From contig JALTZH010000138.1 of assembly GCA_027051265.1 (NCBI GenBank), positions 1-13,627 of the forward strand: 13,627 nt of DNA, read 5' to 3'. This DNA is from an archaeon (GTDB taxonomy: Archaea; Hydrothermarchaeota; Hydrothermarchaeia; JALTZZ01; JALUTC01). Both the position numbers and the translations under genes were made by a program. Below the pieces are notes generated by a model, which was not told the origin of the DNA, did not search any database, and saw only the letters and a program-made list of their open reading frames with translations. Below, piece after piece: positions 1,299 through 13,627 of the stretch (its first letter is position 1; every line of letters begins with the position of its first letter).

Positions 1299-2075
1299 AT
1301 GAAAGCAATTATTTCTCTAGATACAATTTCTTCGAAAAAATTGATTGCAAAAGCCACTAAAAAATATATAGAAAAAGATATAAATAAGAGATTAATAATA
1401 ATAGCAAAAGGTTCTACCAATGCATTTTTGGTTGAAGAAATTTTGAAAAGAGAAATTGATAAAAATAGATACATCGCAGGATATTTAGATCATCACGGTG
1501 CATGTGTGACGGATGTAAACTTCAGGATAAAAGACGTAATCATTGATAGAGGAAAAATTATCGAAGGAAATTTATTCGATTATATAGAGAGGCTTGGTAA
1601 AGGAGATATTTTAATAAAAGGTGGAAACGCTATAGATCGAAACGGATACGTAGGTGTTCTTCTAGCCAGTAAAGAAGGAGGGACACTGAAGTATTATCCT
1701 ATGTTAAAAGCAAAAGGTGTTCGTATAATAATACCAATAAGTTTAGACAAATATATACCTCATGACATATTTAAAATATCAAATATAATTGGTATTGAAG
1801 AATTGGATTACTCTGAAACAATAAAATTAGGTATATTACCTATAGCCGGTGAGGTGATTGACGAAATAAAAGCGTTTCAAATATTGTACAACGTTTCCTC
1901 ATATCTTATATCTGCTGGAGGATTAAACGATAGAATCAAACTTTTTTTACTTGTTGGTAATGATGAAGATGTTAAGAGAGCTGTAGAAGATATCAAGAGA
2001 CTAAAAAACAACACGTTTAGATATATAGTTCCAAGGAATTGTAAATCATGTCAATATGATTGTTCTATGAAATAG
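1299..2075 (+). CDS. conserved protein of unknown function with GSTN and KGGNAID motifs and a C-terminal Cys cluster
   Basis: 258 residues. I recognise this as a conserved uncharacterised family shared by archaea and anaerobic bacteria, but no function is known to me. Visible landmarks: IIIAKGSTNAFLVEEIL near residue 33, an AGYLDHHGACV segment, ILIKGGNAIDRNGYVGVLLA around residues 105-124, GGTLKYYPML, then IPISLDKYIP and a LPIAGEVIDEIKA stretch. The G-S-T and IKGG elements resemble phosphate-binding loops of ribose-5-phosphate isomerase/DeoR-like (ISOCOT) folds; that is inference. The last residues carry Cys-x2-Cys-x3-Cys, suggesting a metal site. The start is supported by the TATA box 27 bases upstream. 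It lies 38 bases before the zinc-ribbon gene on the same strand, so the two may be co-transcribed and both bind metal. Confidence 0.85.
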   Translation: MKAIISLDTISSKKLIAKATKKYIEKDINKRLIIIAKGSTNAFLVEEILKREIDKNRYIAGYLDHHGACVTDVNFRIKDVIIDRGKIIEGNLFDYIERLGKGDILIKGGNAIDRNGYVGVLLASKEGGTLKYYPMLKAKGVRIIIPISLDKYIPHDIFKISNIIGIEELDYSETIKLGILPIAGEVIDEIKAFQILYNVSSYLISAGGLNDRIKLFLLVGNDEDVKRAVEDIKRLKNNTFRYIVPRNCKSCQYDCSMK

Positions 2076-3542: not shown

Positions 3543-3923
3543 ATGAAAAAAGAGGTGGAAATATTTTTAAAAAGAGCAGAAAGTTTTATTAAAGATGCTT
3601 TAGAGGATTTAAAAAGGGGAGACTATGATATAGCAATGTTTCATATAGAGATTGCATGCCAGCTTATTGTTAAAGCTAAACTTCTTGATTTAACTGGATA
3701 TTTTGAGAGAACACACAGCATAAGAAAACTACTTAAAGATTTATCGAAAATGTATAAAAACAAAGAAATAAATGATTTCATCGATAAAAATTGGAAAATT
3801 ATGAGAATTCTTGAATACTCTTATATTGCGGGGAGATATTTGCAAGTGGACTTCGAAGCAAAGGAAGTAAAAGAAGCTTTAAAATTTTATGAGAAGCTGA
3901 GGGATCTGTTATGGACTTCCTGA
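3543..3923 (+). CDS. HEPN-domain protein of a HEPN-MNT pair
   Basis: 126 residues, all-helical, matching the PF05168-type HEPN domain: paired helices with HIEIACQLIVKAKLL at 34-48 and RTHSIRKLLKDL at 56-67, ending in an AGRYLQVDFEAKEV helix. HEPN proteins next to minimal nucleotidyltransferases are usually read as toxin-antitoxin pairs in which HEPN is the RNase toxin. The catalytic Rx4-6H motif of HepT-type toxins is absent: the only His residues are 34 and 58 and neither has Arg at the right distance. It may therefore act as a nucleotide- or RNA-binding partner, or use other residues. Its stop overlaps the next gene by 13 bases, implying translational coupling. Confidence 0.88.
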   Translation: MKKEVEIFLKRAESFIKDALEDLKRGDYDIAMFHIEIACQLIVKAKLLDLTGYFERTHSIRKLLKDLSKMYKNKEINDFIDKNWKIMRILEYSYIAGRYLQVDFEAKEVKEALKFYEKLRDLLWTS

Positions 3924-4255
3924 AATTGGTTTATGAGGAAAGAAAAAAATATTTTGAAAATTTGGATGAATATTTAAAAGAAATAAAAAACATCGTTAAA
4001 AAAGAAATTTCGGAGTTTGAAATATATATTTTCGGTTCTGTTGCGGAGAATAGATATTCCATAGGCTTATCAGATATAGATGTTGCAATAGTTTCTGATG
4101 AATTTAAGGATAGAAAAAAAAAGTTGGATGTTTTTGGTATGTTAACATGGATTTTTATGGATTCCCCATTTGAATTCCATTTATTAACAAAAGAGCAATG
4201 GAACTTCTATAGAAGATTTATAAAAACCGTAAAAGCCGTTCTCTCCTCAAGGTAG
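3911..4255 (+). CDS. minimal nucleotidyltransferase (MNT) of a HEPN-MNT pair
   Basis: 114 residues. It has the nucleotidyltransferase core: Gly42-Ser43, then Asp55-x-Asp57 (GSVAENRYSIGLSDIDVAIV), with a likely third acidic residue Glu88 in PFEFHLL. MNT proteins of the PF01909/PF18765 type transfer nucleotides. In the bacterial MntA-HepT system MNT AMPylates the HEPN toxin and so acts as antitoxin. All three acidic positions appear intact, so the enzyme could be active. ATG 3911 lies inside the end of the HEPN gene (13-base overlap, different frame). HEPN first, MNT second is a common order in thermophilic archaea. The stop codon sits in a hairpin (4243-4283). Confidence 0.9.
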   Translation: MDFLKLVYEERKKYFENLDEYLKEIKNIVKKEISEFEIYIFGSVAENRYSIGLSDIDVAIVSDEFKDRKKKLDVFGMLTWIFMDSPFEFHLLTKEQWNFYRRFIKTVKAVLSSR

Positions 4256-5090: not shown

Positions 5091-5180
5091 CGTGGCGAGG
5101 TGGGTAGATTGAGGAAGCTACGAGGAAGGCTAAAAAGAAACGAGCAAAATGTTTGTTTGGTATATGCCCACCTCGCCACG
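5091..5180 (+). repeat. perfect 14-base inverted repeat in the tnpB leader
   Basis: CGTGGCGAGGTGGG (5091-5104) is the exact reverse complement of CCCACCTCGCCACG (5167-5180), with a 62-base loop and a few more possible inner pairs. It lies between the predicted promoter and the ATG at 5223 and would form a very stable hairpin in mRNA or single-stranded DNA. Confidence 0.8.
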
Positions 5181-5222
5181 AAGCGTCGAAAAAAGAAAGA
5201 TATGAAGAGGAAACAAAAATCA

Positions 5223-6480
<1,258 letters not shown>

Positions 6481-6527: not shown

Positions 6528-7100
6528 TCAAATTGTTCCTTTAAGACTTGGAACGTTTTCATCAACTATGCTGGATGCTTCTCTTAAAGAAAAACCTAGA
6601 GATTTAAAAATCGCTTCGTATAAGTGATGTAAATCTCTGTAATAGAAGGAAACGATATGAAGATTTATTTTTGAGTTGTAAGCAAATGTCTTTAAGAAAT
6701 GTAGAATCAGATCATCTGAAATATCTTCTATTGCTATATTTTTGATCTCAATATTTGTGTAAAAATAACTTCTTCCTGAAATATCTACAACTGTCATTAC
6801 AAGAGAATCATCCATTGGTATTATAGAATATCCGAACCTTCTTATACCTTTTTTATCTTTAAGTGCATTATTGAAAGCTGTTCCTAAAACAATTGCTATA
6901 TCTTCGATTAAATGATGCTTCAAATCTCCCTCAGCTTTTATCTTTAAATCAAACTTGGAATAATAGGAAAGCGTTTTTAACATATGTTCCAAAAATTTGA
7001 TTCCGATATTGATTTCATGCTCTCCATTACCATCTAAATTTATATATAATTCTATATTTGTTTCTTTTGTTTTTCTTGAAACTTCATATGTTCTTTTCAA
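6528..7100 (-). CDS. hisB: imidazoleglycerol-phosphate dehydratase
   Basis: 190 residues, normal length for monofunctional HisB. It catalyses dehydration of imidazole glycerol phosphate to imidazole acetol phosphate (histidine biosynthesis) with two Mn ions in the cytoplasm. Seen: RKTKETNIELYINLDGNG at 9-26, FLEHML with metal His39, the core His62-His63-x2-Glu66-Asp67, the MDDSLVMTVVDISGR strand (usually MDEAL...VDLSGR), and the C-terminal His158-His159-x2-Glu162 (DLHHLYEAIFKSLG), so the metal ligands are all there. The start is TTG at 7100: an in-frame TAA lies 18 bases upstream, no ATG or GTG gives the full N-terminus, and TTTAAG-like sequence precedes it. No other his genes are in the window. 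It is transcribed divergently from copA. Confidence 0.95.
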   Translation of the reverse strand: MKRTYEVSRKTKETNIELYINLDGNGEHEINIGIKFLEHMLKTLSYYSKFDLKIKAEGDLKHHLIEDIAIVLGTAFNNALKDKKGIRRFGYSIIPMDDSLVMTVVDISGRSYFYTNIEIKNIAIEDISDDLILHFLKTFAYNSKINLHIVSFYYRDLHHLYEAIFKSLGFSLREASSIVDENVPSLKGTI

Positions 7101-10897: not shown

Positions 10898-12184
10898 ATG
10901 TATTTTGAAATTGTAAAAAAGATTAGAAATATATTAAAGGAGCACCATAAGTTCTATGATGAATCCTTACCTATGATAGCAAGTGAAAACGTTTCATCTG
11001 CTTTGGTACGTGAGATTGTTGCAAGTGATTTCCAGCATAGATATGCTGAGGGAGATATAGGTAACAGATTTTATCAAGGATGTAAATATGTTGATGAGGT
11101 TGAAAGCATCGTAGTCGATCTTTCTAAGAAATTGTTCAACTGTAGTTTCGTAGAATATAGACCAATTTCTGGAACAATTGCTAATCTCGCTGCATATGCA
11201 TCGATTGCCAAAAGAAACGATGGTATAATCTCTCTATCGGTTAAAGATGGTGGTCATATAAGTCATACGGAGATTTCTGCTGCTGGAATACTTGGGCTTA
11301 GGTTTTACTACTTTGAATTTGATCAGAATAGAATGAATATCGATGTTGATAAAAGTATAAAGAAGATAAGAAGAACAAAACCTAGAATAATAAATTTAGG
11401 TGCAAGTCTCTTTCTATTTCCACATCCAGTCAAAGAAATGAGAGAGATAGCTGAGGAAATAGATGCTATCGTAGTATACGATGCTTCACACGTCTTAGGA
11501 TTGATTGCTGGGAAACAGTTTCAAGATCCAATTAGAGAAGGAGCACATATAGTTACGAGTTCTCATCACAAAACATTTCCTGGACCTCAGGGAGGGTTAA
11601 TATTGACAAATGACGAAGAGCTCTACAAAAAATTTAAGAACAAAACCTTTCCCGGATTGGTTAGTAATCATCATCTACATCATAAAGCTGCTCTAGCTAT
11701 AGCGTTGCTTGAGATGCTTGAATTCGGTGAGAAATATGCAAAACAGATAATAATCAACGCAAAGACTCTAGCAGAAGAATTATACAACTATGGATTTAAT
11801 GTTCTATGTGCAGATTATGGATTTACGGAATCTCATCAAATAGTAATAGATGTGTCAAAATTAGGAGGAGGGGATAAGATTGCAAAAAAACTTGAACGTG
11901 CTAATATAATAGTGAACAAAAATCTATTGCCATGGGATGATTTGAAAAACGTTCAAAATCCATCAGGTATAAGAATTGGTGTTCAAGAATTAACGAGAAT
12001 TGGTATGAAGGAAAATGAAATGAAGATTATTGCAACGTTTTTCAAAAGATTACTCATTGATGGTGAGAGTGAATCTAAGATTAGAGAAGAAGTGATTAAC
12101 TTGAGAAAAAATTTTAAATATATAGAGTATAGTTTTGTTAAAAATCCCGCATATAAATATTACGAGTTCGAGGTAATAGAATGA
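10898..12184 (+). CDS. glyA: serine hydroxymethyltransferase, archaeal type
   Basis: 428 residues, the usual archaeal length. This PLP enzyme interconverts serine and glycine, passing the one-carbon unit to a pterin carrier (tetrahydromethanopterin or a relative in many archaea). Seen: LPMIASENVSS near residues 24-34, RYAEGDIGNRFYQGCKYVDEVE at 48-69, a PISGTIANLAA PLP-phosphate loop, Asp195-x2-His198 (VVYDASHVLGL), and Schiff-base Lys225 in SSHHKTFPGPQGG. Most family members have T(T/S)THK there; the second His in place of Thr is slightly unusual. A TATA box at 10863 supports the start. Its stop overlaps the next gene's start as ATGA, so glycine/serine interconversion is coupled to the downstream phosphatase, which may produce serine. 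Confidence 0.96.
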   Translation: MYFEIVKKIRNILKEHHKFYDESLPMIASENVSSALVREIVASDFQHRYAEGDIGNRFYQGCKYVDEVESIVVDLSKKLFNCSFVEYRPISGTIANLAAYASIAKRNDGIISLSVKDGGHISHTEISAAGILGLRFYYFEFDQNRMNIDVDKSIKKIRRTKPRIINLGASLFLFPHPVKEMREIAEEIDAIVVYDASHVLGLIAGKQFQDPIREGAHIVTSSHHKTFPGPQGGLILTNDEELYKKFKNKTFPGLVSNHHLHHKAALAIALLEMLEFGEKYAKQIIINAKTLAEELYNYGFNVLCADYGFTESHQIVIDVSKLGGGDKIAKKLERANIIVNKNLLPWDDLKNVQNPSGIRIGVQELTRIGMKENEMKIIATFFKRLLIDGESESKIREEVINLRKNFKYIEYSFVKNPAYKYYEFEVIE

Positions 12185-13627
12185 AGCTAGTTGTATTTGA
12201 TCTCGATGGTACATTAATCGATTGTGAAATAATAGACGAGCTTGCAAAATATACAAAGAATTACGAAAAAGTTAAAGAAATCACGGAAAAAGCAATGAAA
12301 GGTGAAATGGATTTAAAGGAAGCGATGTATAAGAGAATAGAATTGATAAGGGGTGTTCCATATGAGAAAGTCATTGAACTTGCTAACAACTTACCTTTGA
12401 TGAAAGGAGCAAGAGAAGTCGTTAAAACTTTAAAGGACAACGGTTTTATAACTTGTATAATAACGGGGAGCTTTGATATATTTGCAAATAAAATCAAAGA
12501 AGAACTAGGTATTGACTACGTATTTGCAAACGGATTAATGTTTAAAAACGATGTAATCGATGGTTTTTATGGTGAGATAATAGATGATAAATCGAAACTC
12601 ATGGTATTACAGAAGTTACTTGAAAAATTAAACCTCAAACTAAAAGATGTTGTGGTTGTTGGAGATGGAGCAAACGATATAAGTATAATGGAAAGAGCAG
12701 GATTAAGTATATCATTCAATGGAAAAGGAGATGTAAACCTGGTTGCAGATGTTATAATAAGAGAGAAAGATTTAACTAAAATTCTTAACTACATATTTAG
12801 GAGGATTGATGAAGACTCTCTCATAAAAGAAAGGGATCGGTTGGATAACGAGCTAAAAGAATTAAGAAAAAACATTTTAAGTAAGAAAAAAATACTTAAA
12901 CAATTGGATGATGAGTGGAAGAGATTAATAAATCAAATAAGAAGTGTTAACAGAAGAGCAAACGAACTTCGAGAGAGAAGAAGAGAATTGAGAAAGGAAT
13001 TGAAACGATTACAAAACAGAGAAATTAGATTGGAAAACGAGATACATGAGTTGGAAAGCAGATACAACGAATTAAAACCTAGACTAACTGGAAACGTTAG
13101 GAAGTTGCAAAGAGCAATTTCAGCATTGGAATGGAAATTACAAACAAGTGTAATGTCTCTAAGAAGAGAAAGTGAGCTTGTTTCGAAGATTGAAAACCTT
13201 AGAAAAAAACTCGAACCATATAAAGAGTTGTTAGAGATTGAGAACAATCTAAAAAAGAAGAGAACTCAGATAGAAAAAGTTAAAGGAAAAATTGAAGAAG
13301 TTAACAAAGAAATAGAGACCGTAACAAAAGAACTCGAAGAGTCAATATCTAAGATAAGAGAAATAGAAAAAAAAGTGGAAGAAATAAACAAGGAGAAAAT
13401 TAAAATATTAAACGAACTAGAAAACTTAAATAAAGAGTATGAGGAAAAGAAAGATAAGCTTGAAAGTATAAAGAAGGAACTAGATGCCTATAAATCAAGC
13501 TACGAAGAAAGAATTAAAAAGAGAAAAGAGAGAAGGGAAAAAGTCTTAGCTAAAAGGTTGTACAAGAGATTTCTATCTGGAGAAAAATTAGGTAGCGATG
13601 AAATATTACTCCTTAGAAGATATAATT
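12181..13627 (+). CDS. SerB-like HAD phosphatase fused to a COG1340-type coiled coil (3' end outside window)
   Basis: 482 residues are seen with no stop. Residues 1-205 are a HAD-IB phosphatase resembling phosphoserine phosphatase: Asp7-x-Asp9 in FDLDGTL, Thr95 in IITGSFD, Lys137/139 in the DDKSK loop, and GDGANDISIM at 161-170. Residues 211 to about 460 are almost pure charged heptads. They include LEWKLQTSVMSLRRESELV at about 316-335, which matches the signature I remember from the archaeal coiled-coil family COG1340. Near the window end a non-coil segment, FLSGEKLGSDEILLL, resembles that family's C-terminus. ATG 12181 overlaps the glyA stop. The pairing with serine hydroxymethyltransferase supports phosphoserine as substrate; the coil may mediate assembly or bind ribosomes or RNA (inference). 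The frame was checked codon by codon. Confidence 0.9.
   Translation, partial: MKLVVFDLDGTLIDCEIIDELAKYTKNYEKVKEITEKAMKGEMDLKEAMYKRIELIRGVPYEKVIELANNLPLMKGAREVVKTLKDNGFITCIITGSFDIFANKIKEELGIDYVFANGLMFKNDVIDGFYGEIIDDKSKLMVLQKLLEKLNLKLKDVVVVGDGANDISIMERAGLSISFNGKGDVNLVADVIIREKDLTKILNYIFRRIDEDSLIKERDRLDNELKELRKNILSKKKILKQLDDEWKRLINQIRSVNRRANELRERRRELRKELKRLQNREIRLENEIHELESRYNELKPRLTGNVRKLQRAISALEWKLQTSVMSLRRESELVSKIENLRKKLEPYKELLEIENNLKKKRTQIEKVKGKIEEVNKEIETVTKELEESISKIREIEKKVEEINKEKIKILNELENLNKEYEEKKDKLESIKKELDAYKSSYEERIKKRKERREKVLAKRLYKRFLSGEKLGSDEILLLRRYN

Follow-up and report, generated by a model that had tools for sequence, protein, structure and literature searches.

A phosphoserine phosphatase domain joined to a COG1340-type coiled coil beside glyA in an archaeal contig, and its apparent decay within the class

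Already in 2005 COG1340 was noted as a group conserved among archaea whose function was unknown (PMC1322226). The coiled-coil family arCOG01159, to which TK2157 belongs, is given in Table 1 of Makarova et al. 2019 as present in 492 of 524 archaeal genomes; the same source records it as "linked to" arCOG01158, SerB, and places it among the top-priority uncharacterised archaeal proteins (PMC6393860). TK2157 appears in a mass spectrometry list of T. kodakarensis chromosome fractions (PMC7325993), and a mutant carrying a transposon in tk2157, immediately upstream of arcS, was partially thermosensitive (PMC6393311). Our literature searches returned no functional study of COG1340 and nothing on the Pfam family DUF7121 (PF23435). 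The phosphoserine phosphatase (PSP) of M. jannaschii, structure 1f5s, is a 211-residue stand-alone enzyme. In the following paragraphs we compare these proteins with a gene at the end of a 13,627-nucleotide archaeal contig (the window), in which a SerB domain and a coiled coil are joined. The features of the locus, all on the + strand, are:

10898..12184, +, glyA, serine hydroxymethyltransferase, 428 aa, directly upstream of the fusion (NF000586, Pfam SHMT)
12181..12184, +, ATGA overlap of the glyA stop and the fusion start codon (read in the sequence; glyA ends ...GAA TGA)
12181..12795, +, SerB (HAD-IB phosphoserine phosphatase) domain, residues 1-205 (TIGR00338, alignment to 1f5s)
12775..13083, +, predicted hairpin, long helix 1 (residues 199-301), which continues directly from the SerB domain (AF2)
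13084..13158, +, predicted hairpin tip, residues 302-326, with a short helix at 305-322 (AF2; conservation peak at about 311-330)
13126..13149, +, LEWKLQTS signature, residues 316-323 (T322 and E330 do not vary across 25 sequences)
13159..13575, +, predicted hairpin, long helix 2 (residues 327-465) (AF2)
13549..13626, +, conserved C-terminal segment, AKRLYKRFLSGEKLGSDEILLLRRYN (no variation at G467 and K469 among 25 sequences; end of the G002 orthologue)

The fusion ORF (12181-13626, + strand) comprises 482 codons and is open to the end of the contig, position 13627 being the last and the stop codon lying beyond it. The final residues read ...LLRRYN, followed by a single T, and the complete orthologue in genome G002 ends ...LLQRFNLI*; judging by this alignment, only two or three codons and the stop are probably missing. 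The first-pass annotation had described a HAD phosphatase running without interruption into a coiled coil, and this is what we find, in one ORF and with all four HAD motifs kept. No missed stop or sequencing error, which it had named as a possible flaw, was found near 12790-12830: the frame is open there, and the junction is repeated in G001 and G002. We give practically no weight to an assembly or sequencing artefact. The contig belongs to a MAG and ends within the gene, but the same junction occurs in G001, an independent genome and the only other one of the genus examined (81% identity), and in G002, from another genus of the same order (42% identity, complete ORF with stop); dozens of genomes in another phylum also carry the fusion, some of them complete. 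These independent genomes rule the artefact out.

Comparison of the window with G001 gave a pN of 0.064 and a pS of 0.775 for the SerB half, 0.160 and 0.827 for the coiled coil, and 0.095 and 0.692 for GlyA; dN/dS was computable for GlyA only (0.053). Nonsynonymous differences are thus few and the synonymous sites saturated or nearly so, which argues that selection keeps both halves.

Searched separately, as the annotation had suggested, each half has its own matches. The SerB half scores 216.7 bits against TIGR00338 over residues 2-205, above the curated equivalog cut-off of 144.15. Its best PDB match is the M. jannaschii enzyme (E=1.5e-46); the two correspond over the entire HAD-IB domain, are about 41% identical across 204 columns of the structural alignment, and agree in the fold predicted for the window's domain (TM 0.81, normalised to the target). 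HAD motifs I to IV and the substrate residues of that enzyme are kept (DLDGT, TGS, K139, GDGAND, E16 and R52), T replacing the S of 1f5s in motif II; in the alignment D7, D9, E16, R52, T94, K139, D162, N165 and D166 occupy catalytic or substrate positions. Unlike the M. jannaschii protein, the SerB domain is followed by a coiled coil of 272 residues. The fusion is the sole SerB over the TIGR00338 cut-off in its genome, and SerA is present there at 593 bits, also above cut-off, from which we surmise that the host most likely relies on the fusion as its phosphoserine phosphatase.

A different substrate has to be considered at this point. The coiled coil might tether SerB so that it dephosphorylates phosphoproteins, instead of or besides free phosphoserine; deletion of serB in Halobacterium salinarum led to strikingly more phosphorylated protein sites, according to work cited in PMC4895103. 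That effect may be indirect and belongs to another archaeon, and the presence of SerA leads one to expect the ordinary serine route, so that we regard phosphoproteins as very unlikely targets.

The composition of coiled coils can bias profile searches, and as a control an HMM was built from ten stand-alone coiled coils of the class only. The window coiled coil scores 168.8 bits against it, and an unrelated coil from the same genome scores -25.7; 1000 block shuffles and 1000 heptad-register shuffles reach 21.5 at most, which rules out similarity by composition alone. Searching the window's genome with Pfam DUF7121 (gathering cut-off 29 bits) gave no match; of the 17 class members in the alignment, the window included, 15 match it at E<=0.001, the window lying outside that set. 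The COG1340-like character claimed by the annotation therefore stands as homology to the stand-alone members and fails, for the window copy, at the DUF7121 threshold. By way of its homologues, their DUF7121 matches and the published entry, we place the coiled coil on sequence grounds in the COG1340/arCOG01159/DUF7121 kind, as a diverged relative of DUF7121 below scored membership, which most of its class relatives attain. It resembles TK2157 in its LExKhQT tip and FK.GEKL...LLLQR C-terminus, and differs from the TK2157-type family in its fusion to SerB and in its divergence.

The LEWKLQTS signature singled out by the annotation occupies residues 316-323, within the internal stretch that is most strongly conserved across the family. 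Conservation in 25 sequences peaks at residues 311-330 or so and again towards the C-terminus; T322, E330, G467 and K469 are invariant across this set, which spans several archaeal phyla. Mean pLDDT was 84.8 in the AF2 model of the fusion and 91.8 in that of the isolated coiled coil; the alignments behind them comprised 4 and 1 sequences, and pTM was only 0.51 and 0.57, respectively. The coiled coil is likely an antiparallel hairpin with LEWKLQT at its tip, the exact shape being less sure than the hairpin itself. Known structures were uninformative: when the coiled-coil profile was run against PDB sequences, the hits were weak and of mixed coiled-coil types, a chemoreceptor leading at E 1.2e-5, and the SMC coiled-coil arms that Foldseek retrieved with the model (E no better than 7e-4) show a generic resemblance. 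The LEWKLQT tip motif is perhaps reminiscent of eukaryotic Bfr1/proton-pump-interactor coiled coils.

The identity of glyA is clear (NCBIfam NF000586, 480 bits, cut-off 335; Pfam SHMT, 4.6e-74), and the four-base overlap with it, reported in the annotation, is read in the sequence as ATGA at 12181-12184. The overlap is also ATGA in G001 and is TTGA in G002. The class survey covered 23 genomes, and the coiled coil was found in 22. The proposed link to glyA bears out in this class: glyA lies directly upstream in 21 of those 22, the sole exception, G014, having a pyridoxal-dependent decarboxylase there. In G030 the same three parts, glyA, serB and the coiled coil, adjoin one another but are encoded separately. 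The gene after the coiled coil, visible in 20 class genomes, encodes in 19 of them a DUF373 membrane protein, a second uncharacterised archaeal family in the cluster (loci L018-L031, L062 and L063); searching the literature for DUF373 together with the coiled coil returned nothing. In the window's genome DUF373 is on another contig, beside other genes, and in G002 (contig C165) phosphoribosyl-ATP pyrophosphohydrolase (PRA-PH) takes its place downstream of the fusion. A further histidine-pathway gene, for IGPD (HisB), lies in the window at 6528-7100 (- strand).

Elsewhere in the window, a gene for a HEPN-domain protein followed by an overlapping nucleotidyltransferase gene (3543-4255) resembles a HEPN/MNT pair. 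An IS605 OrfB/TnpB-like transposase occupies 5100-6447; its C-terminal ORF is 5575-6447, and the ORF upstream in another frame (5100-5540) may, by eye, be the N-terminal part, having no Pfam match. An ORF of 258 aa at 1299-2075 (+ strand), also without a Pfam match, has a cysteine-containing tail, CKSCQYDCSMK. Outside the window, the SerB domain of locus L092 (G116) is broken across two frames (residues 1-111, then 113 onward), which indicates a frameshift or sequencing error.

The fusion is not a new kind of protein, since it is the usual form in another phylum and the SerB link is already published. Of the 149 genomes in the phylum that includes G023, probably Methanobacteriota, 134 match. 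A single continuous match spans both halves in 23 of them, most of the other matches have the SerB half in an ORF of about 450-690 aa, and wherever both halves are listed they are in the same ORF. The domain order is that of the window, in most genomes within a single ORF of about 500-690 aa. These fusions differ in having the TATA-binding protein gene (TBP) upstream, with a four-base overlap in G023, and topA downstream, without glyA; their coiled coils are only about 20-29% identical to that of the window, and SerB motif I is often DxDNV. Because TBP and topA, and not glyA, accompany the fusions of this phylum, a serine-metabolic complex would not be general. The odd "phosphoserine phosphatase" labels on long coiled-coil proteins, for which the annotation had offered the fusion as a cause, are explained by genuine fusions, one other phylum being mostly fused.

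Within the class, the fused SerB is intact in families f1, f2, f8 and f10, the fusion gene of G016 (f8) being split across two contigs. In families f7 and f6 it persists without its catalytic residues. The fusion of G014 (L010) is in frame, has FE-DRTL for FDLDGTL, has lost GDGAND and scores 103.8 bits against TIGR00338; that of G011 (L011), also in frame, has large deletions, lacks both the catalytic Asp motif and GDGAND, and scores 38.9 bits. Both domains are apparent pseudo-phosphatases. Families f3, f4, f9 and f5 have the coiled coil alone, with no fused SerB; in f5 a SerB with an N-terminal extension, ACT-like by inspection, is encoded elsewhere in the genome. This series within the class, from intact to dead to coiled coil alone, is new here.

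The SerB-domain tree places the class fusions in one group and those of the G023 phylum in another, each with strong support (98/99), and the two have no clear sister relation; in the coiled-coil tree the intact, dead and stand-alone forms of the class are not resolved into fused and unfused clades. One early fusion, followed by repeated decay and loss, would fit this pattern, and several fusions might also have given rise to it. The coiled coil thus appears as the constant part and the phosphatase as the dispensable one. Since the coiled coil outlives the enzyme, its function should be separate, and the tip and C-terminus are its likely contact sites.

The annotation had further proposed that the fusion ties the whole COG1340 family to serine and one-carbon metabolism. 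This is not supported: two class families have a dead phosphatase and four have none, yet all six keep the coiled coil, and in other phyla the neighbours of the coiled-coil gene are TBP and topA, ribosomal L10/P1, or a RadA/RadB-like (Rad51-family) ATPase gene. The same observations favour a reading in which the coiled coil is an information-processing factor, associated with the ribosome, tRNA or the chromosome, SerB and glyA being incidental companions in the operon and the fusion a neutral product of overlapping genes. Its occurrence in 492 of 524 genomes (PMC6393860), the identification of TK2157 in chromosome fractions (PMC7325993) and the partial thermosensitivity of the tk2157 insertion (PMC6393311) point the same way. 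Against it, abundant proteins are numerous in the chromosome-fraction list, and the thermosensitivity may reflect a polar effect of the transposon on arcS; a neutral accident is also hard to square with a fused SerB that is usual across another phylum and under purifying selection in the window's genus. We treat this as a tentative alternative that deserves to be taken seriously. As to the function of the coiled coil, its surroundings in the class favour serine metabolism and those elsewhere favour information processing.

We consider the best explanation of the window locus to be an active SerB at the base of a pan-archaeal coiled-coil hairpin, co-translated with GlyA, with a probability of roughly 0.65. 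Directly behind it stand the fusion, the intact catalytic residues, the strong synonymous bias, the conserved gene order glyA-(SerB)-coiled coil and the survival of the coiled coil through the decay of SerB; that the enzyme is active, that the coiled coil tethers it and that its tip has a partner we infer. From family membership and the presence of SerA and GlyA in the genome, the SerB half would convert 3-phosphoserine supplied by SerA to serine, which GlyA would take to glycine and one-carbon units. The coiled coil would be a module of its own and of greater age, with a conserved tip and C-terminal segment that may bind something else, and the fusion would place SerB on this arm. The coiled coil can do without the enzyme, since it is still found next to glyA in families whose SerB is dead or missing.

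SerA was found in 20 of the 23 class genomes, including most of those without an intact SerB. The latter pattern, SerA without intact SerB, holds for most of G003-G009, G011, G013, G014 and G017-G021 (families f3, f4, f6, f7 and f9). The retention of SerA in most of these genomes suggests that another phosphatase probably replaces SerB there. Searches of the class genomes without SerB found no TIGR01491 match in f3, f4, f6 or f9 and histidine phosphatases in f5 only; HAD-IB relatives gave weak matches, among which no substitute candidate stood out. A more elaborate scheme, in our view improbable, would have a pan-archaeal docking arm, with an essential tip partner of its own, capture SerB and GlyA into a serine/one-carbon complex in this class; after decay, the dead domain would have served for a while as a base with a structural or regulatory role, another phosphatase taking over its reaction.

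The class families thus flag lineages that have SerA and no recognisable SerB, in which another phosphoserine phosphatase would be expected. For the coiled-coil family as a whole, the class series separates the function of the coiled coil from that of the phosphatase, and marks the tip and the C-terminus as the sites to test.
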